From the NCBI GenBank assembly GCA_022865305.1, contig JALHSP010000026.1, positions 186,001 through 250,000 of the forward strand: a DNA stretch of 64,000 nt, in the 5' to 3' direction. The notes beneath the pieces are model-generated. The model saw only the letters and a program-made list of their open reading frames with translations. It made no database searches and was not told the origin of the DNA. Position 1 is the first letter of the stretch. Each line of letters starts with the position of its first letter. Shown here piece by piece: positions 6,508 through 43,514 of this stretch. Origin of the DNA: Bacteroidales bacterium. Lineage in GTDB: Bacteria > Bacteroidota > Bacteroidia > Bacteroidales > VadinHA17. Both the position numbers and the translations under genes were made by a program.

Positions 6508-7194
6508 TTAAGCGGCAATGGCCGAATTTATTTCAGTAATAATTTTTTTGTAGTTATCAGGAAATACCATTTTGAATCTTGTGAAACCGCCTCGATCGGT
6601 AAACACAGGTAATTCTTTGAAATCATTTTCATCTAAAGTCATGTTTTGCTTAAGATGCTCCTTTATGTATTCCATCCATTTTCCCTGCTCAGAACTTAAC
6701 TTTATTCCACTGGTTACCTTAAGGATTGCTTGATTTACTCTTTCTTCCGGGCTAAGTAATGGTTCAGTTTCCTTGGCTGCATGTTTCACCATACTGATAA
6801 TATCCACTATATCTTTATGATACACTACTTTATGTGCTATGAGCAATTTTGTCTCTTCAAAATCATTTTCTTTAAGAGCAGTTTTAAGTTCATTCAATGC
6901 CTTGGTATTCCAGTTCTTGGGTTTGTTAAGCAGGATTGAAATCGCTTCGATTTCATTCTCTTTTTGCTTAATGAAATCTGCAAAAGCAATAAGATAGTCA
7001 TCAGGTTTTAGACCAGATTTTGTTTTGGTGTAAAACAGAATATCAGAATGAACTTCATCTTTTACCTCATATCCAACCCAAAATACTTTTTTTGCACGTT
7101 CGTAGTTCTCAAGCAGGTCCTGAAACTGAGGATCTCTGAGCAGTCTCATTACGCTAGCAAAGCTTTCGAATATTTCGGGTAATGACTTCGCCAT
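6508..7194 (-). CDS. hsdR: HsdR C-terminal subunit (EcoEI_R_C domain), separate gene
   Basis: 228 residues matching the C-terminal part of EcoEI-family HsdR proteins. It has the segments MRLLRDPQFQDLL, DYLIAFADFI, VDIISMVKHAAKETEPLL and the closing FKELPVFTDRGG...EINSAIAA. In the family this helical domain docks the motor subunit on the HsdM/HsdS core. Its ATG is embedded in the TAA of the upstream gene (TAATG), so re-initiation by terminating ribosomes is expected. The start (LPEIFESFASVMRLLRD) duplicates in register the last ~14 residues of the upstream protein (GRFAEQLSKYFEKYR), so this looks like a settled gene split and not a recent frameshift. Confidence 0.85.
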   Translation of the reverse strand: MAKSLPEIFESFASVMRLLRDPQFQDLLENYERAKKVFWVGYEVKDEVHSDILFYTKTKSGLKPDDYLIAFADFIKQKENEIEAISILLNKPKNWNTKALNELKTALKENDFEETKLLIAHKVVYHKDIVDIISMVKHAAKETEPLLSPEERVNQAILKVTSGIKLSSEQGKWMEYIKEHLKQNMTLDENDFKELPVFTDRGGFTRFKMVFPDNYKKIITEINSAIAA

Positions 7195-9227
7195 TATCTG
7201 TATTTTTCAAAGTATTTAGATAGTTGCTCGGCAAAGCGTCCCATATCGCCATCAGGAATATATTTGCTGAAATCTTCACGTGCCTTACCACTCATGTTTT
7301 TTTCAATTCTATGCAACCTTTTAGCCAACCGTTTTGCATTTGCATAGCGATCTTCGTTATTGTAAATCTTTTCAATAAGCTCTTTAATTGTTATGGTGTC
7401 TGTACCGGGAGGATCGATACTAAAGTTATAACTGGCATCTTTAAAATATTTAATTAATGTACCATTGAAACAATCGAAAATAACAAAATGAGTTTTAGCT
7501 ACTTCAAAACATTTACGAGTACCACGGCCCAGCATCTGTTCCCAAAGAATCCGGGATTTCACAGGACGAAGAAATACAATAAATTCCAATGCCGGAATGT
7601 CTACCCCGGTACTCAGCATATCAACTGTAACCACAATCTTCGGATCAGGGCGATTCCGAAATTCTTTAATCTTCTTTAACGGACGATCAACATTAGGGCT
7701 GCCTGTAATCTTTGCAACAAAATCATCGCCAAGGTTATATTTCTCCTTACAGATCTTAACAAGCCGATCTGCATGTGAAATATGTTGAATATCGTTTGAA
7801 GCAAAAATTAATGTTTTTGGGAATCTTCCAAATTGGGTTTCCCAATCATCCGTATATTTTTTTAACTCCTCGATAATTTTTTGGTTAGTATCAGGGGCTG
7901 TAATTTTCTCTTCGATTTCAGTCGTGGTAAATTCTCTTTCATCTTCAAGCTGGTCAATCTGTTCTCTACCCGTTTCCGTATCAACAATACCAACCTGTTC
8001 ACCTTCTTTCAGAAAGGCTCCATTCATCAATACTTTTGAATCTATAGCAATTGCATCATAGTCGACAAGAAAACCTTCATCAATTGCCTGCTGCAAAGGG
8101 TAATTGAAAACAGGTTTACCAAAATATGCGACAGTGTGTGAAGCAGGAGTTGCTGTTAATCCGATCTTAATAGCATCGAAGTGGTTCAAAACATTCCTCC
8201 ATACGTTTGTCTCTTTAGATGTATAGCCTCGATGGCATTCATCTGCAATAATGAGATCGAAAGCATGTGATGGTATTGAAAGAGTTTCTGTATCATCTTC
8301 TTCCTCTTTCTCTTCACCCTCAGGAAAAGCACCTTCACGGCCGTATAGATTTATTGCCATGCGTTGTATTGTACAAACATACAGGAATGTCTTGCTGCTA
8401 TCCGGGTTAGTTAAATAAGAATTGGGTAAAATACCAGGATCATATTTCATATCCTCAAAATCTTCCCTCCTGAATCGTTGAGAATAAAGCTCATACTCAT
8501 CTTTTAATTTTATTTTTCGTGGAGTATCGAATGAGGCAAAAGCTGTTACTGCCTGTGCAGCAAGTGATTTACGGTCAACAAGAAACAATACTTTTTTTGC
8601 ATACTTCGACGCTAACATTCTATATACCAGACTAACTGTTGTATAAGTTTTTCCAGTCCCGGTAGCCATTGCAAGAAGCATCAGGTTTTTTCCGGACTCA
8701 ATTCCCTTTTCAACAGCATTAATTGCATCCTTCTGGTATTCGCGGAGGCCGGGAGATTCAATCGGAGTATTCCGGAGCCATTTTAAAGAAGGTTCCTTAT
8801 CGGCTTCAAAAAAGCTTAATAGTGCCTGAGGGGAATGAAAATTAAAAGTTTGCCGACTTAGATTCTTCTCCGACCTTATGTCTATATGATAAATAAGCTC
8901 CCCGTTTGAGGAATATAAAAATGGGACCTTGTATTGGTTCCAATTACCAATCGTATTTATTGCTCCCTTAGAATACCTTTTTGCCTGCTCCAGGACATTC
9001 TGTGCACCTACCTCAATTTTTTTTGCCTCAACAAATCCAAGTAATTTTCCATTGACTATCAACCCATAATCAGCTGGACCATTTGCAGTTTCAAATTCTT
9101 CAATTGCATGATTTGTCAATGTAGAGATATTATCTACTGAATTGGCTGGAATGATTATCCATCCGGCAGATTGGAGCAATTTGTCGATTCTGGTTTTGCG
9201 GGTAATATATTCTGATTCTGAAGACAC
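7194..9227 (-). CDS. hsdR: Type I restriction endonuclease HsdR, nuclease-motor part
   Basis: 677 residues from a GTG at 9227. The N-terminal HSDR_N nuclease domain shows PADYGLIV...LLGFVEAKK, giving D53 and E67-x-K69 of the PD-(D/E)xK site. The SF2 motor follows: Walker A MATGTGKTYTT (K193), DECH box IIADECHRGY (329-332), GLTATP, then the RecA-2 segments VVTVDMLSTGVDIPALEFIV and the arginine finger motif MLGRGTRK. The protein stops after IPDGDMGRFAEQL, just before the C-terminal docking domain, which is the next gene. No promoter of the usual pattern was found in the 300 bp upstream. A GTG start is unusual here but there is no in-frame ATG nearby. Confidence 0.93.
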   Translation of the reverse strand: MSSESEYITRKTRIDKLLQSAGWIIIPANSVDNISTLTNHAIEEFETANGPADYGLIVNGKLLGFVEAKKIEVGAQNVLEQAKRYSKGAINTIGNWNQYKVPFLYSSNGELIYHIDIRSEKNLSRQTFNFHSPQALLSFFEADKEPSLKWLRNTPIESPGLREYQKDAINAVEKGIESGKNLMLLAMATGTGKTYTTVSLVYRMLASKYAKKVLFLVDRKSLAAQAVTAFASFDTPRKIKLKDEYELYSQRFRREDFEDMKYDPGILPNSYLTNPDSSKTFLYVCTIQRMAINLYGREGAFPEGEEKEEEDDTETLSIPSHAFDLIIADECHRGYTSKETNVWRNVLNHFDAIKIGLTATPASHTVAYFGKPVFNYPLQQAIDEGFLVDYDAIAIDSKVLMNGAFLKEGEQVGIVDTETGREQIDQLEDEREFTTTEIEEKITAPDTNQKIIEELKKYTDDWETQFGRFPKTLIFASNDIQHISHADRLVKICKEKYNLGDDFVAKITGSPNVDRPLKKIKEFRNRPDPKIVVTVDMLSTGVDIPALEFIVFLRPVKSRILWEQMLGRGTRKCFEVAKTHFVIFDCFNGTLIKYFKDASYNFSIDPPGTDTITIKELIEKIYNNEDRYANAKRLAKRLHRIEKNMSGKAREDFSKYIPDGDMGRFAEQLSKYFEKYR

Positions 9228-9422
9228 TAAAGATGTAAAATTTTAAAGTATGAGTATTTTAATAATTTATAGATCAATTTATTAGACAATGAGATTTATG
9301 GGCTTCACTAATAAGGATAAAATTACGCAAAATATAAGTAAATACAAATTGGAGCTTTTCAGGTTACAATAAATGCAATAGAATTGTAATTAAGTAACCA
9401 GACAATATTTAAATATCTAAAA

Positions 9423-9551
9423 TCATTTCAAAGGCTCCATATACCTGACACCTTTTCCGTTCTTCTTCGCATACTCAATCTCACTCTGTGTTGATGAACA
9501 GACTGAGAAACCGCACGTCGAATACCCACCCCATAAAAAACAATACCTTTG
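9423..9551 (-). pseudogene. Short relic of a protein-coding 3' end
   Basis: In the 365-bp gap upstream of hsdR, the minus strand carries 42 codons that read like a real protein C-terminus, ending SEIEYAKKNGKGVRYMEPLK and a TGA at 9423-9425. The frame is open only from a TAA at 9552-9554 and has no start codon. The residue mix (alternating E/K helix, GKxVRY) looks coding, not repeat-derived. I do not recognise the family with certainty. The rest of the gap is AT-rich and shows nothing else. Confidence 0.3.
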
Positions 9552-9592
9552 TTAATAATAACCGATGCTTAATACTTTATTTTAATTAAATA

Positions 9593-10069
9593 ATGAAGGC
9601 TGTCACAGTAAAAGAAATCAGTCAGGAATTACTTAACCTGACACCTAAAGAACTCCGTGACCTCTGTCTCCGGTTGTCAAGATTCAAAAAAGAGAACAAG
9701 GAGTTACTGACTTACCTGCTGTTTGAGTCATCAGATGAGGCATCGTATATTGAAAGTGTAAAAAAGGAGATTGATCTGCAGTTTGAGCAGGTAAATAAAA
9801 AGAGTTATTACTTTATTAAAAAAGGTCTTCGCAGGATTTTGCTCAACACCAGGAAGTATATCAGGTATTCACATAATAAGAAAACGGAGATAGATTTGCT
9901 TATCTATTATTGTTCAAAACTGAAAAAATTCACCCCCTCTATTCAGAGGAATGCTGCACTCCGGAATCTTTATTTAAGGCAAATCGGGACAATAAGGGAA
10001 AAACTTGGCTCCCTCCATGAGGATTTGCAGTATGACTACGGGTTGGAGTTGAAGGCATTGGACAGCTGA
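9593..10069 (+). CDS. Conserved-looking hypothetical helical protein
   Basis: 158 residues, mostly alpha-helical and rich in Lys/Arg/Leu, with no signal peptide or membrane segment, so cytosolic. The N-terminus (VKEISQELLNLTPKELRDLC) looks like a helix-turn interaction motif, and two basic helices follow (FIKKGLRRILLNTRKYIRYS and RNLYLRQIGTIREKLGS). I cannot name the family. A TACCTTTG box at 9544-9551, about 42 nt before the ATG, fits the Bacteroidetes -7 element, although no TTTG lies at the right distance upstream. It is a lone gene, diverging from the restriction operon. Confidence 0.6.
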   Translation: MKAVTVKEISQELLNLTPKELRDLCLRLSRFKKENKELLTYLLFESSDEASYIESVKKEIDLQFEQVNKKSYYFIKKGLRRILLNTRKYIRYSHNKKTEIDLLIYYCSKLKKFTPSIQRNAALRNLYLRQIGTIREKLGSLHEDLQYDYGLELKALDS

Positions 10070-10124
10070 CGAAGACGGCTTGCAATGCACGGAACAAGAG
10101 GGAGGATCTGGTGAAAGAGACGGA

Positions 10125-10394
10125 TCACTGTACTTTCTTTATCCCGGTAAAGGTACCTTCTCCGTATGTGGCGAAGATTACCTTTCCTTTCATACGATTG
10201 CCATCAACTGTCCCGACATACTCCATTGTAACTTCGGATGCTGAGATTTGAAGGTTAATTTTACTGCCTTTCAAAGTACCTTTCAGCGGAGCCTCTCCAA
10301 ACTGACCGGAATAGGTCCCGGTAATAATGGAATCATTTACCTGCTTCAAAACTATAACAGGATTCCCTGAACCCTGGCCCGTTTCGACAGACAT
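10125..10394 (-). pseudogene. N-terminally truncated relic of a GTYSG/GTVDG beta-sheet protein
   Basis: About 89 codons with repeated beta-hairpin motifs (SIITGTYSGQFGEAPLKGTL, VGTVDGNRMKGKV, YGEGTFTGIKK). In-frame codons upstream of the first ATG still read SAGTWN, the start of this domain, but then run into a tccgccagccggcgga repeat with no signal peptide or start. It is therefore probably the surviving 3' part of a secreted protein. A second, shorter relic with nearly the same C-terminus is at 46537-46599. It may still be translated from the internal ATG, so a small real gene is not excluded. Confidence 0.45.
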
Positions 10395-10548
10395 GTTCCA
10401 TGTGCCGGCAGAACAGACCGTCCGCCAGCCGGCGGACGAGACGACCGAAGGTCAGACCGCACGAAGTGTGAGACAGAGCGAATTGGGAATTTACTTCAAC
10501 AGATCGGAATATATTACTATTTTTAAAAGATGTAAAACAACTCTAAAA

Positions 10549-11418
10549 ATGACCGTTTTCGGGAGCTTCAAATTGACAAAATTATTACATAAGATTATTC
10601 CGGTTTTTATATTCTGCATGATATTTATGCTTTTACTTTTTCCCCAGGCATGCAGGAATAAAAAACCTGAATTCAGGGTTATCTCTTTTTTTAGTGCTGA
10701 AAACGACCCTGCCCATATAAGCTTCGTCAATGAAGCTAACAGGTGGTTCCCGGAAATGGCTGAAAAATATAATTTCATCTATTATTCTACCAGCGACTGG
10801 GACAACCTGAATCCGGAATTTCTTTCAGGCTACCAGGTGATTGTTTTCCTCAATTCAAGACCCGACTCCACTGACCAGAGAACCGCTTTCAGGCAATATA
10901 TGGAAAACGGGGGTGCATGGATGGGATTCCATTTCGCCGGATTTGCGCTTACTCCTTCAGCTTTCCCGCAAAACTGGGACTGGTACCATAATATTTTTTT
11001 AGGATCAGGCGAATATAAAGGAAATACATGGCGCCCCACTTCCGCTGTCCTGCACACCGATGACCTGTTGCATCCTGCAACGAAACACCTTCCTGAAACA
11101 TTCACTGCTTAACCCAATGAATGGTACTCCTGGAAAAATGATCTGAGAAACAACAATGATATAAGAATACTCATATCAATCGATACATCAAGCTTTCCAC
11201 TCGGTACAGGACCAAAACGGTACGAGATATGGCAGAGCGGCTACTACCCGGTGGTCTGGACCAACAGGAACTATAAAATGCTCTATATCAATATGGGCCA
11301 TAACGATATAGATTATGAGAATAAAACTAATGAGGAGCTTTCATTAACTTTTAACAATAAGATACAGAACAGGTTAATTATTGACGGCCTTTTCTGGCTG
11401 GGGAGAACAGAACAATAA
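10549..11418 (+). pseudogene. ThuA-like lipoprotein gene broken by an in-frame TAA
   Basis: From the ATG at 10549 the frame encodes a signal peptide with a lipoprotein-type Cys (LLLFPQACRN), then a ThuA-like domain: FRVISFFSAENDPAHISFV, a GYQVIVFLNSRPDS strand, and GGAWMGFHFAG, the ThuA core. The frame meets TAA at 11110-11112 after HPATKHLPETFTA, then continues without a shift as PNEWYSWKNDLRNNNDIRIL through YPVVWTNRNYKMLYINMGHNDIDYE to a TAA at 11416-11418. The second part is the expected ThuA C-terminus, so one nonsense change (for example TCA to TAA) splits the gene. ThuA-like proteins act in sugar metabolism; the substrate here is unknown. A sequencing error is the main alternative. Confidence 0.8.
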
Positions 11419-12030
11419 GGCGCAAGGGCGCAAGGGTGAAACGGCAGATAGAAATGAGGGGGTGAGGGCGGGAGGGGGAGAGAAGGGGAGAAAAGTTGAA
11501 AGTTTATAAAGTCATTACAATCTGATAAATTGCAAGATTGCATGTTGAGGAGCCCCGCCCTGCGGGGTAAACTTCGCGACGAACCGAGTCCCGCTTAGAC
11601 GGGACGAGCTCGGCGAAGCCAAATCCCGACAACCTGAGGAACGAAGGTTCGTCGGGAGCCGCAAAGACTCAGAGCTTAGAGTTCAGTTCTGCATGACTCC
11701 GTTGTTAAAAAGAATTAAGAATGAAGAACATTCGAACAGCGAAGCAAGAATTTAAATCTTCTGCATTCTTATTTCGTTTGTTCGTTGTTCTTACTTCAAA
11801 TACAAACTCTGTGTTACACCGTGAAAAACTCCGTGTTACTCAGTGGTTAAAAAGATAAAAGAATAAGTTGAAGTCCGCCTTCGCTATTGACTTCTTCGCC
11901 AGTCGGCGGATTCGTCGGCCAAAGAAAGCGTTGGAAGACATATTGGGAAATCCATCACCAATTACCTGCCTGCCTTGCCTAACCTGCCTACCGACAGGCA
12001 GGCGGCAGGCAGGCGTCATCTTCATGGTAA
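11419..12030. repeat. Intergenic repeat mosaic
   Basis: No gene is visible in this 612-bp stretch. In order it holds a GCGCAAGGGCGCAAGGG decamer tract (11420-11445), a G/A-rich tract (11455-11495), one copy of the REP-like double hairpin (11543-11606), a segment resembling gtgttacaccgtg...actccgtgttactcagtggt (11811-11850), a tccgcc...ggcgga segment, and an inverted CTGCCTGCC/GGCAGGCAGG repeat (11957-12018) next to the stop of the NlpC/P60 gene. Open frames here are translations of the repeats. Confidence 0.75.
11543..11606 (+). repeat. REP-like double hairpin, copy 1
   Basis: Begins gttgaggagccccgccctgc and continues with cggggtaaac, then a second, diverged stem gtcccgcttagacgggac. It shares the TTGAGG-CCCGCC-GGGGTAAAC core with the copies at 14512, 23545, 42959, 43765 and 49100. 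Confidence 0.7.
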
Positions 12031-14369: not shown

Positions 14370-14441
14370 ACTTTTTTGTATCAAGACAAAAAAGTAACTG
14401 GGGTTTGGGGCAACGCCCCATTTTTGAGACGAACAAAGAAA
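14370..14441 (+). repeat. 72-bp dispersed repeat, copy 1
   Basis: Nearly identical to 40662-40734, with a few substitutions and one length difference. It contains two hairpins: an inverted repeat gttacttttttg (14367-14378) / caaaaaagtaac (14387-14398), and tggggc-aac-gcccca (14406-14420). It ends in gacgaacaaagaaa. No coding function is evident. Confidence 0.85.
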
Positions 14442-14511
14442 GAACAAGAAAAAAAGAAATCCAGAGAATCGGGACGAGACGTCCCGCGTACACGGAACAG
14501 ACCGCCGCAGG

Positions 14512-33195: not shown

Positions 33196-33533
33196 TGATT
33201 TTACTCTTTTTCATTGCAAATTTTGTTTATCTGTTATTTGCTGCAAAATAAAAGTTACCAATCGGTTAAAAATTAAAGATGAAATGCAACTATGATAGAT
33301 GAACAGAAATTCGTCCTCAATTCCCTGCCTGCCCTTCCTACCGGCAGGCAGGCGTCACTCTCTAGAATTAAAAATCCCGCAGATTATTGATCTTGCGGGA
33401 TTTGCGATTTAATGACGTGGTGCATGGTCCGCCTTTGCTGTTCCGTCGATGAAGCTTTAGAGCGTAAGCGACAAGCCTTTGGCAATCCGAACACCTGGCA
33501 GCCGGGTGACTATCAAAAACCAGAGACAGAATT
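33196..33533. repeat. Intergenic repeats
   Basis: No gene. Contains the CTGCCTGCC inverted repeat (33317-33357), an AAATCCCGCA stem copy (33372-33403) with its flank (to 33422), and a tccgcctttgctgttccg segment (33428-33480). Confidence 0.7.
33372..33422 (+). repeat. AAATCCCGCA stem element, copy 2
   Basis: aaatcccgca, 12-nt loop, tgcgggattt, then gcgatttaatgacgtggtgc. Matches 23248 in stem, loop length and flank. It lies directly downstream of the CTGCCTGCC repeat. Confidence 0.75.
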
Positions 33534-35612
33534 CTATTGAATTCTTCTGGTAATTGTATATTGACCGGTTATTTTATAATCGTTAGTTTCCAGAAGAAGA
33601 GGGTATTGTACCAGATCCTGATCTTTAATGTCTGTTGATAAATAGTGTGAATTGCTTGCTTCACCCATATAATCATCTCCATCTTTTGTCCCATCGTCAG
33701 CCTCATAGCCGGTTGTGTAAAAGGAATAAAGATATCCAGGTATAAGATTTACATAATTCTTTGATTGATTGATATTATAAATATTTCCTGGTTCACCATC
33801 CTTATTGAAATTAAATTCCCAACTTCCGTTTGCGGTAACAGAAGTACGAATTTTAATTCTGTATTCATCCGTTTCATATGGCCAATCGTCTTTATTTGAT
33901 TTTGATTCAAAAGTTGAGTAGATAACATTTAAATCATAGACATACCTCTTTACAGGCAGAGTTGCACTGTATATTTGATTTCCTTCATTTTCCTCCGTAA
34001 CCGATCGATTTATATCCACATTTACCGTAAAGGTATAATTTCCGGGGTTTTGAACTGTAAATGTTCTTGAAGTTACTACTGCTACATTACTGGATATGGC
34101 AGAAGCAACAACTCCCACAGGTACATTAATATCTATAGGTGCTAAGGCAGGCGATGAGGTAATCTGAATTTTAAAGTCATTCTTTATTTCTTCAGGATGA
34201 CTGAATCCGAGTTTAACATTAAGTGAAGTACTGCGTCCTGCAACAGCATAGGGCTCTGTCCATGAGATCTCCATCGGAAAAATGTCGGGTAGCGGAGCAG
34301 GTGGAACAGGGTATACTATGGTAAGTAATTGTGGACTCACAATTTCAGTTTTATTATCTAATGCAACAATACCATAATCACCTTCAGGCAGCTGATATCT
34401 TGTAGTAAAGAAATCATTAATTCTTCCCAGTAAAAATTCTGATTGAGCAACCCCAAATTCTCTCACTGCAATATCCTTTTTGGCGTTTTGTATTTCGGAA
34501 ATATTAGCATGCACAGCAATGTTTTGCGGAATGGCAGTATGCGCAACAGGCTCAATATTAATAGGGTGCATAATAACTTGCGGATATGTAACCTGCGGAT
34601 GCATTTTTTCATTCACACTTTTTGCAAATCGTTTATACTGAGCTGAATTTACTATTGCCTGACCTGACACACCCATAAATTTACTGAATTCGGCAAACAC
34701 AGGAGGCCCCCATGTTTTAAAGTTGCCTAATACAATTCGATTCTGGGATTTAACAATTATATTTTCTGGTGGGAAATTGTATTTTACCTGATCTCCGATT
34801 TTAAGAACAACTTTCAAAGTATCGATCTTATTAAGATGTTTTCCATACAGAAAAATTTTATCATTAGTACCGAAAGTAAAAGTTTCAGGGTAGACACTTG
34901 TTACTTTAGGCAAGACTTCAGTGCCTTCATATTTTATGCCCAGGTTAAAACCTGCAATTATATTTCCTCTGATCCTGTTAGAAAAAATTATAGTTAAGAA
35001 GAAAGCGAGGTATATAACCATAAACGATAAGCCTATTCCTCTTAAGAGTGTCAAGGTCCTCTTCTTACGGAATAATAAGAAAATAAAAATAATTAAGCCA
35101 ATCGCGAGCAATATAATCGAACAGATAATTACTGCAGAATTTACAGTTTTATCTACCAGCACAAATACATTACCAAAAGTGAGAACAATAATATCCTCAA
35201 CGCTTGAACTGATGAGGTTAATATTCTCCTGAATCTCGGATGATAACTGATTCATTAACATTGGCAAAGACTCATCGAGTATTCCTGTTTTAATCTGGTC
35301 TAACAATTGTGAAATGTTGCGAAATGCATTATCAACTGTACCATTTACTTCGTCAAAAAGAAAACCGCCACTATTTTGTATGGTAGTTTCAATCACCTCA
35401 GCGAGCTTATCCAAACGTTCGTCGATTAAGTTTCCGACTTCTCGCGATAGTTCACCAGTTTCAACTTTGGTATCAATCTGCTGGACAATTGAATTTATGT
35501 TCTCAAGCAGATTATTTGCGGTTTGTGTCAGGTCTTTTAAACGTGACACTAAACCACATCCATTCAGTAAAAGAAAACTGACAAGGATGCATAGGATTGC
35601 ATTTTTTTTCAT
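33534..35612 (-). CDS. Large lipoprotein with membrane hairpin and IPT/TIG-like domain
   Basis: 692 residues from the ATG at 35612, which starts a lipoprotein signal (AILCILVSFLLLNGCG); a frame to 35675 adds 21 residues with no signal. Residues ~25-150 are a helical coiled region (TQTANNLLENINSIVQQIDT). Two membrane helices follow near 160-225 (AVIICSIILLAIGLIIFIFL, GIGLSFMVIYLAFFLTIIF), unusual for a lipoprotein. Then an IPT/TIG-like strand set (KVTSVYPETFTFGTNDKIFL), and a C-terminal CARDB-like beta domain (ISWTEPYAVAGRSTSLNVKL). It has its own promoter but lies directly downstream of the CHAT/MBL operon in the same direction. Function unknown; a link to that operon is only positional. Confidence 0.7.
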   Translation of the reverse strand: MKKNAILCILVSFLLLNGCGLVSRLKDLTQTANNLLENINSIVQQIDTKVETGELSREVGNLIDERLDKLAEVIETTIQNSGGFLFDEVNGTVDNAFRNISQLLDQIKTGILDESLPMLMNQLSSEIQENINLISSSVEDIIVLTFGNVFVLVDKTVNSAVIICSIILLAIGLIIFIFLLFRKKRTLTLLRGIGLSFMVIYLAFFLTIIFSNRIRGNIIAGFNLGIKYEGTEVLPKVTSVYPETFTFGTNDKIFLYGKHLNKIDTLKVVLKIGDQVKYNFPPENIIVKSQNRIVLGNFKTWGPPVFAEFSKFMGVSGQAIVNSAQYKRFAKSVNEKMHPQVTYPQVIMHPINIEPVAHTAIPQNIAVHANISEIQNAKKDIAVREFGVAQSEFLLGRINDFFTTRYQLPEGDYGIVALDNKTEIVSPQLLTIVYPVPPAPLPDIFPMEISWTEPYAVAGRSTSLNVKLGFSHPEEIKNDFKIQITSSPALAPIDINVPVGVVASAISSNVAVVTSRTFTVQNPGNYTFTVNVDINRSVTEENEGNQIYSATLPVKRYVYDLNVIYSTFESKSNKDDWPYETDEYRIKIRTSVTANGSWEFNFNKDGEPGNIYNINQSKNYVNLIPGYLYSFYTTGYEADDGTKDGDDYMGEASNSHYLSTDIKDQDLVQYPLLLETNDYKITGQYTITRRIQ

Positions 35613-35653
35613 AGCTAAATTGGTTTTTTTTATTACTAGAACATTGACAAAAC

Positions 35654-35686
35654 CAAAGTTACGAGATAAATACAATACAAGTCAAA
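35654..35686 (-). promoter_or_regulatory. Promoter of the large lipoprotein gene
   Basis: Minus strand TTTG (35686-35683), 21 nt, TAACTTTG (35661-35654), an exact Bacteroidetes pattern. Transcription would start about 35 nt before the ATG at 35612. Confidence 0.65.
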
Positions 35687-35719
35687 TTTATTTTTACTAC
35701 ACAGCCAGATCCTCCCTTT

Positions 35720-35822
35720 TTGAGAGTTCTGGTGTCTTAACCCGCTTGCGGGACCGTTTCGCCCTTTGGGCGGTTTTTCTTTGGTTCTTTCTTTGGCCGA
35801 ACAAAGAAAAATCAAGCAAAGA
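35720..35822. repeat. CCCGC/CGCCC hairpin element
   Basis: Two hairpins, cccgcttgcggg and cgccctttgggcg followed by gtttttct, then tttctttggttctttctttgg and cgaacaaagaaa. The CGAACAAAGAAA end is shared with the repeats at 14370 and 40662. It lies between the CHAT/MBL operon and the large lipoprotein gene. On the plus strand the second hairpin looks like a terminator. Confidence 0.65.
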
Positions 35823-35829
35823 ACATATA

Positions 35830-36933
35830 TTAAAGTTCAACAATTATTCCTTCTTTTCCTCCAGGTGGATATTTTGCTGTAAATCCCTTTTTACTCCCTG
35901 CCGGAGCTGCCGACCAGATCGAATTGAACTTTGTTTTATAATTGAACCACAGTACAGGCTTTTGAACAGACCACTTAATTACAGCGTCAACTGCCGATTT
36001 ATTAGGATGATTATGCAATTCCCCGTTTGTACTGAAAAGAAAATGCTTTGAATCGATTAAATCCATCAGATCCTTTGAAATATTATTCCGGCTTCCATGA
36101 TGCGAAACCTTTACTGCATCTGCTTTTAACCTTTTTCCACTATTCCCTGTGAGTTTCCTTATAGAGTTACAGATAACCTTATGGTGAGCATCTCCGAGAA
36201 AAAGACAGCTTTTGCCACCAAACTCTGCGAGAAAAGCAATGCTGGTACCATTAGAAACGGATTGATCTGTGCTGAGCTGTTTTTTAAGTTTCTGTTCAAA
36301 ATCACTTTCACCACCCAGTACACCCTGAGAAACATGATATTTTGTTGAGGCTACAAGCTGTTTCCACGCTTTCTCAAGATCGCCGGGATCCAATCCGAAT
36401 TTTTCAACATCTGCCTCCCACTTTCCTGCCATATCTGATAATTTTTCCGGATCTGGTGAGAGTAAAGTAAGCTTCATGCCATCCTTCAGTTCTTTTACTG
36501 GCAATGGTCTGTTTTTTCCCGCCATTACCGCTTTTCTGTCGAAAGCTTTGTTCCACTCATTGAATGCCCTGCGGCTTATAAGAGCACTTAGGAAATCCCC
36601 TTCTCGGCCACCAAGCATTTCAGATTTCCTGAGATGACGCCACCCGTTAAACCAGATATCAACTGGCATAAAAGGCCATCGTGTACGATCATCGGCAAAG
36701 AGCCGGATAATACCTTCAATATGGTCTGTGTCCACATGTGTAATAACAACAAGCTCAACACGTTTATCATCATCAGGAAGACTTTTCAATTTTTTCTCCA
36801 CAGCAGGAAAAGCATTAATCGGTCCCCCATCTACAAGGATATGCCGGGTTCTTGATTCAGTACCATATTCAATCCATAAAGCGTCACCTTGAATGGCAGG
36901 TAACATCTCAATTCTGAAAAATGATTTTGCCAT
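35830..36933 (-). CDS. ComEC-like metallo-beta-lactamase-fold hydrolase
   Basis: 367 residues. The MBL metal site is clear: VVITHVDTDHIEG gives H66-x-D68-x-D70-H71. A later LFLGDAHHK supplies Asp248 and KVSHHGSRN supplies His278/279, the pattern of ComEC/Rec2-type MBL domains. Substrates in that class are nucleic acids or phosphoesters. There is no membrane segment, unlike ComEC itself, so it is a free cytosolic enzyme. The gene starts 5 nt after the CHAT gene's stop and is the last of the three-gene operon. It probably acts with the CHAT protease; which comes first in the signal is not known. Confidence 0.85.
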   Translation of the reverse strand: MAKSFFRIEMLPAIQGDALWIEYGTESRTRHILVDGGPINAFPAVEKKLKSLPDDDKRVELVVITHVDTDHIEGIIRLFADDRTRWPFMPVDIWFNGWRHLRKSEMLGGREGDFLSALISRRAFNEWNKAFDRKAVMAGKNRPLPVKELKDGMKLTLLSPDPEKLSDMAGKWEADVEKFGLDPGDLEKAWKQLVASTKYHVSQGVLGGESDFEQKLKKQLSTDQSVSNGTSIAFLAEFGGKSCLFLGDAHHKVICNSIRKLTGNSGKRLKADAVKVSHHGSRNNISKDLMDLIDSKHFLFSTNGELHNHPNKSAVDAVIKWSVQKPVLWFNYKTKFNSIWSAAPAGSKKGFTAKYPPGGKEGIIVEL

Positions 36934-36938
36934 TATTT

Positions 36939-39878
36939 TTATTTTGTAGTAAGTTTCCAGTCTGCATCACCAAAAGCAACAATACATAAAGCCATAAGAG
37001 GCCCTTCAATAATTGCCTTTTGTTTAATCGCTCGTATTATTTCACCAATACGTTCATATTTATCGGTTTCGCTTATAAGACCCTCGATAAGTTGTTCAGC
37101 AACGTCAGTGGCATGGTCCACAAAGACTTTTGCAATGGTACTGATAACAAGTGCTGCACCACCTCTCCTGAACCAGCTCACATAACTTCCGTAATCAAGC
37201 GAAGTTCCGGCAGTGTCACATCCGATAAGTGCAACGAGCGGAAAAGTAGGTTCGTCTTCCGGATGAACATAATCTGGAGTGATCTGTCCGCTAAGGATAG
37301 ATTTTCCGCCTATTTCGAGTGAAGCATCAGATTTACTTCCTTCAGTATGTGGCAGGGCAAGGAGAATTCGCGGTTTTATGGTTTTAACAGTATCTTTCCA
37401 TTGATCCCAATTCTTTACTTCCTGAGGTGGTAAACCCAAATGGGAAGTACAGGATTGTATTACCTGTTCAAATCTGGCTTTTTTGACTTTTGTACTTGCA
37501 GCCACCAGGGCAGATCCTTCCAGATCCAGAAAGCCCCGAAGTGTTGTTGGTTCTGTTTGAAGATAATGACCACTTTCAGACTGTTTTAACTGTTTTGGAG
37601 TCATATGACGTTCAATTACTTTCGTCACTCCCCAGAAACCTATAGGACATACATATTTAACTGTCTGATATTTACATTTTTTACTGCAATTGCCAACTTC
37701 CAGGCAGGTTCCATCAATTAATTTATTTATTTCAGCTAGCCTTTTTCCTTTTTCCGGTATCTTTTGCAAGGTCTCCATAGGGGGACAAAGTTTTGCATCG
37801 TTATTGGGAGCAACTGCGTTATATATAAACTCCAGAGGAATGAGATCATCTGCCTGGGTGCTTACTACCTGGATATATTCTACTTTTTCAAATGAAGTTT
37901 CATTTCCGGAATTCTTAATATAATCCTCAACAATTAAACCGTAAAGTGAACGTCCGATTTGTGCAAGTTTTACCAGCATCTGCACATTTTCTTTAATCTC
38001 CAGTCCTCCATGATAGTCACGTGGAGACATGGCGATATTAGATAATTCGGTATTTAAGTCCCCGATTATCTCATTAGAGTCAGGGATATCAGCTACCCAT
38101 TCATGATTGGCTGAAATAGCCGTAATCCATGAACGGTTATGCGAAGTCCTGTTATGTACCAGAGCAAGATCGAACTGCCGGCGTTCACCAAGATCCACGA
38201 TATTTGACCTTACTGACAGGATATCGTCAAAAGATATGACGTCATTTTCATTTAATTTTTCTGAATCCTTTACTACTCTTCCTTTGAGCAGGGCTGTCTG
38301 AAGAATCCGGCCTCTGTGAATAACTGTGATCCTGCCTTCAAATACCGGTTTCTTACCAGGAATTATCTGAAATTCACATTCAGTGCTTGGTCCATTTTTA
38401 GGAAGCTTAATAGGTTTTCGCAAAGGCTTATCAATATGATCTGGTTCAGAGAGAACAACACTCAAACACCATTCATCCCTATCCTTTGGCAGCTTCTCAG
38501 TAGAAAATTCAGTACCTAAAGATCCCCATTTTTTATCAGGTTGACCGATTCGTATCCGAATTATAGTTGAAATACCTTTAAAGAAAGCCCTTTCCTCCTC
38601 GACTAATTTTCCATCCTTCGTTATATATACCTGCTTTTGCAGAAATCGCTTTATCTGTTTTTTATCAATAGACTCACATTCAGAAGTTTCTATTGCTTTG
38701 CCCATCTTTGCCATTCCTGTAGCTCCTGTATCTTCACGCTCGAATATTATTGCCTTCTTAAATTCCCGGAGCTTTTTAGCTGCAAAGTCGGGGCGTATAA
38801 AATCATCCTTCCCGATTTCCTTCGTCGGGATACCCATCCTTTCAAAAGAATCTGATTTCATTTCAAGATGGGCTCCTTTTGGCAGGCTTTCCAGCCTTTT
38901 GTACATTTTTTCAAGCAAATGTTCAATCTGGAAAGAAGCCAGATCTTTACTCAGGCAGATAACCGGATCACAATGATAGCTTTTCGTAAAAGCTTCGAAA
39001 ATAGCCACATCAAGAGGTTGATTATGTGAAAGGTTTTCAACAAGGCGATTAATTGCCCGTGCCATACTCTCATCCTTTACATTGGGATTAACGATGACAA
39101 AACCGTTGGCATGACTCTCTGCAATGATATTGAAAAGTCGGTTGTACAAAGGTTTAAGGTCATCCTCAAACGATCCGTGAATAATTATCAGATTAGTTTT
39201 ATGTGGAACGGGAGAATCCAGCATCATTTTCAGCAACTGTGTGGTATTCCCGTTGAATATCAGAAGGTCGCAATTGTCATTCTCCCGATCAATGCAGACG
39301 ATTTGCGTAAGTTCGCTGGAAGGCCAGTAGAAAAATGCATTCCTCACATCTTTCTCAGCCTTGTTTCCGGGGAAATATCCTAAACGAAGAGGCCATTTCA
39401 CCTGCGGGAGCACCTTATCTGTATTGAGGTCAATATGAACGGCTTTTATTGAGGGGCTGGCATTCTGAAATAATCTGAACCAGGGACTTACCATTTCTTT
39501 AATTGGAAAATCGAGGATTTTTATTTGCAGAACAAGATCAGGTTCGTTGATCAGACTTCCCCATGCATTTGATACACTTAATGGATCCAGATCAGCCAGA
39601 AATACGTCATCCCTGCCTATTCTGACTGTTGAATTCTTTTCAGGAAATCTCCAATGAAGGAAATAATCTTTCTCTTTAGGTTTCCATTTATTTTTATTGT
39701 TAATCCCCATTGAGTATCTGATAATTTCCCGGACGATATCCTGAAGACTCCCGGGTGATTTATACCTTTTTTTTGAAAGAGCATCTGACTCAAAGATACC
39801 CAGAACCATAAAAGAATTTGCAAACTGTTTATCATCCAGTTTCTTTCCCCATTTTTGCCAAAATTCAAATTTATTCAT
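36939..39878 (-). CDS. Large protein with C-terminal CHAT (caspase-like) protease domain
   Basis: 979 residues. The C-terminal part (~590-979) fits the CHAT family: a DLIPLEFIYNA segment (like the usual LPxELLY), a catalytic His in LLALPHTEG (H844), and a catalytic Cys in LVALIGCDTAG (C887) followed by RRGGAALVISTIAKV and EIIRAIKQKA. A zinc-like four-Cys set (C725, C731, C735, C744) lies inside this domain. Residues 430-560 look like a beta-sandwich. Residues 140-330 (IIIHGSFEDDL ... GFVIVNPNV) could be a degenerate, Cys-less second CHAT-like copy. No TPR repeats are evident. The role, as an effector that cleaves other proteins in cell suicide or defence, is inferred from CHAT relatives. Confidence 0.78.
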   Translation of the reverse strand: MNKFEFWQKWGKKLDDKQFANSFMVLGIFESDALSKKRYKSPGSLQDIVREIIRYSMGINNKNKWKPKEKDYFLHWRFPEKNSTVRIGRDDVFLADLDPLSVSNAWGSLINEPDLVLQIKILDFPIKEMVSPWFRLFQNASPSIKAVHIDLNTDKVLPQVKWPLRLGYFPGNKAEKDVRNAFFYWPSSELTQIVCIDRENDNCDLLIFNGNTTQLLKMMLDSPVPHKTNLIIIHGSFEDDLKPLYNRLFNIIAESHANGFVIVNPNVKDESMARAINRLVENLSHNQPLDVAIFEAFTKSYHCDPVICLSKDLASFQIEHLLEKMYKRLESLPKGAHLEMKSDSFERMGIPTKEIGKDDFIRPDFAAKKLREFKKAIIFEREDTGATGMAKMGKAIETSECESIDKKQIKRFLQKQVYITKDGKLVEEERAFFKGISTIIRIRIGQPDKKWGSLGTEFSTEKLPKDRDEWCLSVVLSEPDHIDKPLRKPIKLPKNGPSTECEFQIIPGKKPVFEGRITVIHRGRILQTALLKGRVVKDSEKLNENDVISFDDILSVRSNIVDLGERRQFDLALVHNRTSHNRSWITAISANHEWVADIPDSNEIIGDLNTELSNIAMSPRDYHGGLEIKENVQMLVKLAQIGRSLYGLIVEDYIKNSGNETSFEKVEYIQVVSTQADDLIPLEFIYNAVAPNNDAKLCPPMETLQKIPEKGKRLAEINKLIDGTCLEVGNCSKKCKYQTVKYVCPIGFWGVTKVIERHMTPKQLKQSESGHYLQTEPTTLRGFLDLEGSALVAASTKVKKARFEQVIQSCTSHLGLPPQEVKNWDQWKDTVKTIKPRILLALPHTEGSKSDASLEIGGKSILSGQITPDYVHPEDEPTFPLVALIGCDTAGTSLDYGSYVSWFRRGGAALVISTIAKVFVDHATDVAEQLIEGLISETDKYERIGEIIRAIKQKAIIEGPLMALCIVAFGDADWKLTTK

Positions 39879-39928
39879 AACGATCCCCTCCCTGATTTAT
39901 TAGTATTTTATGAACTGAATAACATCAG

Positions 39929-40432
39929 TTATTTCGAAAGCAAAACAAAGCCTGCCAGCAGAGCTATTAATGGCATTAAATAAACGATCAGGCAGATAAT
40001 CATATCTCTCCAGTAACCTGTCCCATTTAAAGACCTGGGATCGATATCGGTAGTAGTTCCTGAGATTTGAAGGACTTCGTCAAAAACTCCGGCAACAGCT
40101 GATTTGGCTTTACTAATATCAAGTATAGTTTTATACAATTTATTAAGTGCTTTAATTACTCTGTACTTTCTTCTGACATAATTAGAGTCGACTACCAGTG
40201 CACCCAGCGTAATAACAATGGCTAAAATTGCCATAAGATTCAATAGCTGGTTGAAGTTACTGATACACCCTTTATCAATGATTGATTTAATCAGCAGCCC
40301 CCATATTGCAAAGAAAACAGTCAGGAATCCTGTCCTTAATGCCCAGATCATTTTATCATACTCATGAATTGCCTGATTTTTTCCATCCATTTCAAACAAG
40401 ATGGTTTTTTGCAGTAATGTTTCATTTTCCAT
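39929..40432 (-). CDS. Small three-helix membrane protein, first gene of CHAT operon
   Basis: 167 residues. Three hydrophobic segments are predicted (around 31-50, 64-83, 144-165: GFLTVFFAIWGLLIKSII, NLMAILAIVITLGALVV, MIICLIVYLMPLIALLAGFV). A charged helix of about 55 residues (RRKYRVIKALNKLYKTILDI) separates the second and third. The layout resembles small SLATT-like membrane components of conflict systems, but I cannot assign it to a family. It is 50 nt upstream of the CHAT gene under the same promoter. It could be the sensor, or a pore opened or cut by the protease. Confidence 0.65.
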   Translation of the reverse strand: MENETLLQKTILFEMDGKNQAIHEYDKMIWALRTGFLTVFFAIWGLLIKSIIDKGCISNFNQLLNLMAILAIVITLGALVVDSNYVRRKYRVIKALNKLYKTILDISKAKSAVAGVFDEVLQISGTTTDIDPRSLNGTGYWRDMIICLIVYLMPLIALLAGFVLLSK

Positions 40433-40540
40433 AATGGTTAATTGTTTTAATTAAGGAATATTCAACAATATATCAATAATGATAATATTGAGACTCAACT
40501 CCATATATATAGAATTTTCTGACCTGACTTTCCTGGTTAT

Positions 40541-40572
40541 CAAAGTTAAACCACTATTACAGGAAAAGCAAA
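40541..40572 (-). promoter_or_regulatory. Promoter of the membrane protein-CHAT-MBL operon
   Basis: Minus strand TTTG (40572-40569), 20 nt, TAACTTTG (40548-40541). This is an exact match to the Bacteroidetes housekeeping pattern. The predicted leader is about 100 nt and holds TATATATATGG and an inverted-looking AT segment, leaving room for control. Confidence 0.65.
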
Positions 40573-40661
40573 AAAATATTTAGTCCGGATGGTTTGCTCG
40601 CCTGAAGAATATGTTACTTTCTTTTAGCGTTAAAAGAAAGTAAAGAAAAAGATTTTAATAA

Positions 40662-40734
40662 ACTTTTTTGTATCAAGACAAAGAAAGTGACTGGGGTTTG
40701 GGGCAACGCCCCATTCTTAAGACGAACAAAGAAA
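40662..40734 (+). repeat. 72-bp dispersed repeat, copy 2
   Basis: Nearly identical to 14370-14441, with the same tggggcaacgcccca hairpin and the same gacgaacaaagaaa end. It lies between the CHAT operon promoter and the FMN reductase gene. About 350 bp here (40433-40782) has no gene: an AT-rich leader, the promoter, and this repeat. Confidence 0.85.
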
Positions 40735-40782
40735 AAACGAAAAAGACTTTAAGACGCTGCGCAGCGAATGAGAGATCACTGT

Positions 40783-41343
40783 CTATTCCATCATTCTTTT
40801 TTTCGCCTCAATACACCAGAATAGTTCTTTAATGAAATTTGCTGTTCGTTTATCAAGAGCGGCTTTGTCAACCGGATTCCCATTATCATCAAATGTCTCC
40901 CTGACCCTGGGAACGGGGAACATGGCAGTAACTGTCCAGGCCCGCATCTTCCAGAGTGTGAACTGCAATGATGTGATCACCTGGGCTCCGCCGAAATTAC
41001 CATCTGATACTGTCGAAATAGCAACGGGTCTGTGATACCACGCGTCATATAACAGGTCAATAACATTTTTCAGACTGGCAGGATAACCTCCATTATATTC
41101 CGGTGTAACAATAATAACACCGTCAGCATTTTTAATCTTCTCTGCAAAATCAAGCGCTGCATCGGGTGGATCCTTTTGTAAACGCAGCCTTTCATTAAAC
41201 AACGGGAAATTGTATTTATTCAGATCCAGCATCTCAACTGTTGCAAGTTTATTTTCTTCCAGATAGTTTTTGAAATACAAAGCCACCCTGTGACTGTTCC
41301 TTCCTGTCCTGACACTGGATGATATAATGGCAATCTGCGGCAT
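40783..41343 (-). CDS. NADPH-dependent FMN reductase family protein
   Basis: 186 residues, the normal length for this flavodoxin-like fold. The FMN phosphate loop is ISSSVRTGRNSHRVA at the N-terminus. The second flavin-binding loop is VTPEYNGGYPASLKNVIDLL, the family signature, followed by SDGNFGGAQ. It is a cytosolic flavin or quinone/azo reductase. It is a lone gene; the coding strand runs away from the CHAT operon's promoter region. Confidence 0.92.
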   Translation of the reverse strand: MPQIAIISSSVRTGRNSHRVALYFKNYLEENKLATVEMLDLNKYNFPLFNERLRLQKDPPDAALDFAEKIKNADGVIIVTPEYNGGYPASLKNVIDLLYDAWYHRPVAISTVSDGNFGGAQVITSLQFTLWKMRAWTVTAMFPVPRVRETFDDNGNPVDKAALDKRTANFIKELFWCIEAKKRMME

Positions 41344-43064: not shown

Positions 43065-43514
43065 TTATTTGTCGTATCTTTTATAACCAACAGGTTTCAT
43101 TCTAGGCCTCTCTTTTTCTTTCTGATGTAATGCATCTATCTTTTTCAGGAGAAAATGGAAGACTTCGTTTAACTTATCGTCAAGATTCCTGATTTCATTT
43201 TTCAATTCGCTGTTTTCTAAAAGAAGGGCACGGTACCTGGCAAATGCTCTCATTATTTCTATATTTACCTTAATGGCTTTCTCTGAACTAAGTACCGATG
43301 AAAGCATTGCAACGCCCTGCTCAGTAAATGCCATAGGTGAATATCTGGTCCCGCCCCATTTTGAGGACGCATTTTGCGACCTCAAATTAAAGAACTCCTC
43401 ATCTGTAAGGACAAACATAAAATCTTCCGGAAATCTGCTAATATTTCTGCGAACCTGCTCTTTCAATCTTTTGGTTTCAACTCCATAAAGTGCTGCAAGA
43501 TCATAATCAAGCAT
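43065..43514 (-). CDS. ORF6N-domain protein, 5' end probably frameshifted
   Basis: 149 residues from the first usable ATG (MLDYDLAALYGVETKRLKEQ), which falls inside the ORF6N domain. In-frame codons upstream of it still read SLIFKIRGYKV, the expected start of this domain, but run to a TAA with no ATG. One base away in frame, an ATG at 43573 reads GAA TTA TAA; adding one A (ATG GAA ATT ATA AAA) would give a normal start, so a 1-nt deletion in an A-rich tract is likely. ORF6N domains bind DNA in phage-type regulators. The promoter at 43620-43652 supports an original start near 43573. Downstream are a coiled C-terminus and charged tail. Confidence 0.75.
   Translation of the reverse strand: MLDYDLAALYGVETKRLKEQVRRNISRFPEDFMFVLTDEEFFNLRSQNASSKWGGTRYSPMAFTEQGVAMLSSVLSSEKAIKVNIEIMRAFARYRALLLENSELKNEIRNLDDKLNEVFHFLLKKIDALHQKEKERPRMKPVGYKRYDK

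Follow-up and report, generated by a model that had tools for sequence, protein, structure and literature searches.

Nucleases of the metallo-beta-lactamase (MBL) fold that await activation by a protease have been described from several defence systems. According to the main text of PMC12799240, such pro-nucleases are gated by two insertions. In Hachiman and AVAST the activating partner is a trypsin; in canu (caspase-nuclease, CanABC) a caspase activates the MBL protein by proteolysis, and the nuclease gene stands downstream of that of the caspase. The paper also mentions proteases from a range of other families, and the words CHAT, patatin and phospholipase do not occur in its main text. A CHAT protease under allosteric activation has been reported for Csx29 (PMC10028731). 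Here we describe a locus in a stretch of 64,000 nucleotides, hereafter the window, from a Bacteroidales bacterium of the VadinHA17 lineage (assembly GCA_022865305.1, contig JALHSP010000026.1, positions 186,001 to 250,000 of the forward strand), in which a CHAT protease gene is followed directly by an MBL gene. We consider it probable, with some reserve, that the two genes constitute a canu-like protease/pro-nuclease module, the CHAT enzyme being built like separase and Csx29.

A Conserved CHAT-MBL Gene Pair

Three genes follow one another on the minus strand of the window. The first encodes a 167-aa transmembrane (TM) protein (39929–40432), the second a 979-aa CHAT protein resembling separase and Csx29 (36939–39878) and the third a 367-aa metallo-hydrolase of the ComEC/Avs1a type, the proposed pro-nuclease (35830–36933), with intervals of 50 and 5 nt. 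The coordinates agree with an initial annotation, made from the sequence alone, that had recognised three minus-strand genes with these gaps, and the range which it assigned to them, 36939–40432, covers the TM and CHAT genes but does not extend to the MBL gene, although this gene was described as well.

When one genome from each of 84,980 species was scanned with a pattern, at least 57 CHAT loci were obtained. An MBL gene follows the CHAT gene in every locus with enough downstream sequence (54/54); of the three others, L018 and L047 go no further than the CHAT frame and L032 breaks off within the MBL gene. Relative to the end of the CHAT frame, the aligned part of the MBL protein starts between -115 and +73 nt in 52 loci and at a distance of 364 nt in L040, where the CHAT frame ends early. 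An apparent CHAT-MBL fusion in L056 was rejected: as read by eye, the single open reading frame (ORF) seems to result from a break in the frame ahead of the Cys. This locus yielded no gap value. Moreover, five plasmid records carry a partial CHAT match and the MBL gene adjoins it in all five. Pairwise distances between the CHAT proteins and between their MBL partners are closely correlated (Pearson 0.94 for 52 loci, with 0 of 999 permutations as high), although this value, like the other distance correlations given below, contains host relatedness, which was not removed. No relative of the window's TM gene was found in the 57 loci, and a conserved TM-CHAT-MBL triplet, as envisaged in the initial annotation, was rejected: the pair recurs, the exact triplet does not, and the conserved unit is CHAT plus MBL.

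The CHAT-MBL module is real and widely scattered. Its hosts belong to nine phylum-level groups, namely Pseudomonadota, Bacteroidota, Myxococcota, Thermodesulfobacteriota, Actinomycetota, Chrysiogenota, Verrucomicrobiota, Chloroflexota and a Methanoperedens-type archaeon. Among 5.8 billion proteins searched, with 7,999 candidates scored, there were at least 247 CHAT relatives, of which 120 were listed; 26 and 96 of these 120 entered a first and a second alignment, respectively. Around the window the gene is rare, being found in one of 395 sampled genomes of the phylum and one of 117 of the family, in both cases the window's own.

The CHAT Protease

The CHAT protein of the window consists of an N-terminal unit (residues ~34–322), a beta-rich region (~412–540) and a separase/Csx29-like protease (~519–979). 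For the last part, comparison of an AlphaFold model by VIA-align indicated a caspase-like fold of the Csx29/separase type around the His/Cys dyad, as the initial annotation had expected. His844 and Cys887 occupy the positions given there, the dyad is intact in the window, and the two residues are kept in 55 and 53, respectively, of 56 aligned rows, the window included. The cluster of four Cys residues noted within the CHAT domain was likewise located and is widely retained in the same rows (C698 and C744 in 56/56, C735 in 55/56 and C731 in 51/56).

Pfam detected neither STAND nor TPR nor any known sensor domain in the three window genes, which bears out another part of the initial annotation, but the N-terminal unit had escaped it. 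We read this unit as a degenerate second CHAT, or pseudo-CHAT; the N-terminal alignment comprised 48 rows, all of the 50 locus fragments except L045 and L056, and one further alignment (A7) omitted L056. A different combination occurs in L045, from the Methanoperedens-type archaeon, where the CHAT protein (7928–11722) has an N-terminal caspase (C14) domain, giving one chain with two protease units, and the MBL gene follows directly.

The MBL Protein

The ComEC-type metal site of the MBL protein, formed by H66, D68, D70, H71, D248, H278, H279 and H309, is invariant in 54/54 rows, the window included, in accordance with the soluble MBL hydrolase with a ComEC-type site recognised initially. All 53 scanned MBL rows match the Avs1a model with E <= 1e-5, the window protein scoring 237.6 bits, below the curated cut-off of 420 bits, and the model is also matched by MBL proteins of caspase loci (214.9) and of ABC-three-component loci (192.4).

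A profile comparison with the solved ComEC protein aligns residues 6–80 and 221–315, and between these blocks there are 140 residues here as against 60 in ComEC, about 80 extra. The stretch from the HxDxDH motif to the next Asp motif measures 151 residues in the window, which is also the median for the 43 parsable rows of 53, and 141–149 residues in four plasmid loci with a caspase, a CanB-like protein and an MBL (caspase-B-MBL loci). A comparative alignment included an Avs1a (Priestia, L092), ABC-three-component MBLs (L093, L094), a plasmid CHAT-MBL protein (L095) and the plasmid caspase plus CanB-like MBLs (L096–L099). The extra regions fall in the same places throughout, with a longer first region in Avs1a and a shorter second one in the ABC-three-component MBLs. 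In a quick tree of 61 MBL proteins the rows associated with CHAT and those associated with a caspase intermingle at the base, where branches are long and support is weak, a pattern that fits partner exchange without proving it. Distant matches to the MBL protein occur in 7 phage records.

Comparison with Described Protease-Nuclease Systems

The initial annotation considered an MBL hydrolase an unexpected partner for a caspase-like protease, a view overtaken by the pairings in AVAST, Hachiman, Lamassu, DRT and canu reported in PMC12799240. Its real CHAT protease with an intact dyad and its soluble ComEC-like MBL stand, whereas the surprise at this partner and the triplet fall away.

The closest likeness is to canu, in that a caspase-family protease gene precedes an MBL nuclease gene, in the window and in 54/54 loci, and the MBL proteins are related and carry extra residues beside the active site. 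The module is not canu in the strict sense, because neither the protease type nor the CanB component corresponds: CanA is a MALT1-like paracaspase with a C-terminal Ig-like fold, whereas the window protease is of the CHAT/separase/Csx29 kind. Moreover, the window family has its N-terminal pseudo-CHAT unit, and a patatin or membrane gene takes the third position.

AVAST type 1 (Avs1a) and the nuclease-protease variants of Hachiman, Lamassu and DRT share a homologous MBL with a protease partner. Assignment to AVAST type 1 is contradicted by the sub-threshold Avs1a score, by the lack of STAND/protease and Avs1c domains in the six window proteins scanned, where no trypsin domain was seen either, and by the position of the MBL gene, which is downstream and not upstream. 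The Type III-E Craspase, with Csx29 as a TPR-CHAT protein, differs in that no TPR array was found in the window genes and in that the partner here is an MBL rather than Cas7-11 and Csx30 (no CRISPR search was made), and eukaryotic separase has other partners, while the window enzyme has the second, degenerate N-terminal unit.

Among 14 plasmid regions fetched, six carry caspase-B-MBL loci (L096, L097, L098, L099, L100 and L103), their canu-likeness being judged from gene order and not from published canu sequences. A lipase-type gene adjoins the caspase gene in three of the six: a divergent patatin in L096, a DUF2235 gene on the same strand at 8 nt in L099 and a divergent alpha/beta hydrolase in L100. 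DUF2235 proteins are, we assume, related to phospholipase toxins, and these cases hint at a wider association of lipases with protease-nuclease modules. Two other arrangements were seen on plasmids. In a Bosea plasmid (L101, 3470–9171) the MBL gene lies between genes for 838-aa and 682-aa proteins, each annotated as a member of the caspase family, and TIR-domain genes immediately precede this group; in a Rhizobium etli plasmid (L104, 3841–7092) a MoxR ATPase gene, a gene for a 373-aa protein of unknown kind and an MBL gene stand in a row, possibly representing a further partner type.

A Proposed Mechanism

Because the gene order is of the canu type and the MBL protein is related, we propose that the CHAT enzyme, acting as the protease, cleaves the MBL protein. 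In the resting cell the MBL nuclease would be held inactive by the extra stretches near its active site. A trigger, perhaps sensed via the N-terminal pseudo-CHAT and beta-rich parts, would arrange His844 and Cys887, the CHAT protease would then cut the MBL protein, and the freed DNase would degrade DNA and stop the infected cell. The patatin phospholipase or other membrane-acting gene found in many relatives might supply a further effector or regulator, and here the 167-aa protein occupies that slot. The participation of the CHAT operon in a conflict system, put forward in the initial annotation, appears plausible. If the proposal is correct, the theme of the protease-activated nuclease widens from trypsin and paracaspase to CHAT, with a link between such pairs and phospholipases, and the family of separase-like bacterial CHAT proteases gains a concrete candidate substrate in the gene product that adjoins it at every assessable locus.

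Several observations weigh against this proposal. We found no cleavage, nuclease or phage assay on any CHAT-MBL member in the open-licence literature, and the gating of the MBL active site is a conjecture from sequence comparison. The Avs1a match is not specific, because ABC-three-component MBLs match the model too, and G108 and G112 of the MBL protein, considered as CHAT-specific cut sites, were rejected since they are conserved in Avs1a as well. No CanB-like gene lies between the CHAT and MBL genes, which are 5 nt apart, and a profile search revealed no similarity between the CanB-like plasmid proteins and CHAT, although a structural counterpart within CHAT could remain. One relative, L037, has Arg at the position of Cys887. 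No CHAT relative was found in phage records or IMG/VR. Among 138 neighbouring proteins, taken nearest first from 525 selected and scanned without a control set, PADLOC matches were scattered, with 1–3 proteins per family (32 families matched, 25 listed); the neighbours look mostly ordinary and a defence-island context was not seen. Finally, the TM gene may be a bystander.

The Gene Upstream of the Protease

The 167-aa protein was initially described as a small membrane protein, and a simple hydropathy scan, the sole method applied, agrees, predicting three TM segments (29–47, 56–74 and 145–163). Whether it belongs to the system is finely balanced: there is slightly less than an even chance that the gene is a bystander and that the working unit of the window is CHAT plus MBL alone. 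In favour, its family has no representative in the 57 loci, and 13 of the relatives carry CHAT-MBL with no upstream partner gene evident. Moreover, its homologue P0122, on a contig of 88,672 bases, is 81% identical, whereas the best other full-length CHAT protein among the matches listed is 54% identical to that of the window, so the TM and CHAT genes seem not to travel together. Against it, the TM gene lies on the same strand at 50 nt from the CHAT gene, with a promoter-like motif ahead of it and none seen between the two, and in L002 and L007 a comparable position is taken by unrelated small membrane genes. In addition, of the 117 genomes sampled from the family, the window's own is the only one with either the TM or the CHAT gene. 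In the sets of 60 relatives, 393 genomes of the order and 385 of the class, too, the only TM match was the window's own, a result that goes against a conserved triplet. A second TM homologue, P0126, and the CHAT homologue P0072 have source contigs of equal size (6,689; 0.08 such coincidences expected), but a shared contig was rejected as probably coincidental because their compositions look unlike and P0072 is 80% identical to the betaproteobacterial L010.

In relatives the place of the TM gene is often taken by a patatin or by a different small membrane protein. At 31 of the 51 loci with at least 1.1 kb before CHAT, a patatin-like phospholipase gene lies just upstream or with one small membrane gene between. 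Five of five representatives scanned scored above the cut-off for patatin PF01734, and the catalytic Ser and Asp columns are kept in 31/31. We found no description of a patatin-CHAT-MBL combination in the open-licence PMC literature. The other 20 loci are diverse: L049 and L055 have alpha/beta-hydrolase-like genes (by eye, with no Pfam match for L055), L044 a possible PD-(D/E)XK nuclease (by eye, with no Pfam match) and L045 the caspase domain fused to CHAT, and the 13 loci without an evident partner are among them, upstream ORFs in the GC-rich loci being crude calls. An SH3-domain gene precedes CHAT in L033, L047 and L050, and a 465-aa ORF upstream of CHAT in L048 was set aside as it looks like a shadow ORF. 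The small membrane gene between patatin and CHAT in L002 and L007 encodes a 150-aa protein with a relative before patatin in L004, and no relation to the window's TM protein was seen. Members of this family and the listed CHAT matches show six exact coincidences of source-contig size, where 0.29 are expected, and one such pair has neighbouring locus tags (R2750_03340 and R2750_03345).

The window is nested among patatin-associated relatives. When 56 CHAT proteins were placed in a quick maximum-likelihood tree, with SH-aLRT support only, it came out as sister to L002 plus L008 (100) within an eight-row set (98), in which L002, L003, L004, L006 and L007 have patatin, L005 has none and L008 is cut. 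The same eight rows group together in the MBL tree (94), where the window's sister is unresolved and L003 is the nearest row. A search of the window gave no trace of a patatin gene (best E 0.031), and the simplest reading is that its lineage lost the patatin gene.

These associations allow a broader, rather doubtful possibility, in which CHAT, under the control of its own pseudo-protease half, would set off two agents, the MBL as a pro-DNase and a protein acting on the membrane (patatin, alpha/beta-hydrolase or small membrane protein), for a joint attack on DNA and membrane, the phospholipase having been replaced in the window by the three-pass membrane protein. It is less likely still that the membrane-side gene is the true target of the protease, such that CHAT would activate or release patatin or the 167-aa protein and the membrane would be broken, with the MBL acting separately as a second nuclease or a regulator. 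The frequency of patatin, the correlation of its distances with those of CHAT (0.836 for 31 loci; MBL with patatin 0.855 for 30, with 0 of 999 permutations as high in each case) and the 150-aa family with its contig coincidences speak for such a target, but the patatin slot is empty or otherwise filled in 20 of 51 loci whereas the MBL is present in all 54 assessable ones, and for the MBL partner a mechanism has been published while none was found for patatin. Regulated proteolysis in stress or development rather than defence, with CHAT as a signalling protease, like Csx29 cutting a sigma-factor inhibitor, and the MBL as a processing hydrolase, is improbable given the patchy spread over nine phylum-level groups, the nuclease-type MBL of defence lineages and the association with phospholipase genes.

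Promoter-Like Motif and Genomic Neighbourhood

The exact TTTG-N20-TAACTTTG promoter of the initial annotation, a motif of the Bacteroidota type, is present at 40541–40572 on the minus strand, with the TM start codon 109 nt further on. By itself the motif is weak evidence, because the window contains two instances of the pattern TTTG-N20-TANNTTTG where 0.51 are expected, and at least two were found in 7 of 100 shuffles.

Beyond the MBL gene, at 154 nt, a minus-strand gene (33534–35675) encodes a membrane protein of 713 aa, which matches CARDB and TIG weakly. It was rejected as part of the system: partial relatives, 76% and 74% identical, occur in 2 of 61 other genomes of the same genus, with neither CHAT nor MBL on the stretches fetched. 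A clean empty site in G406, of the same genus, was also rejected: under the search settings nothing there matched 33316–40800, but the two flanks, each of them present, are rearranged.

Three further features of the window may be recorded. The product of a minus-strand gene at 7194–9227, some 26 kb away from the CHAT operon, matches ResIII, helicase and HSDR_N and is a candidate subunit of a type I restriction system. An ORF6N-domain protein (E 5e-32), of a class often found on mobile elements, is encoded on the minus strand at 43065–43514, two genes upstream of the first gene of the operon. The intergenic region before the TM gene (40600–40790) contains an 84-base repeat, with a 92% identical copy at about 14370–14453 of the window.
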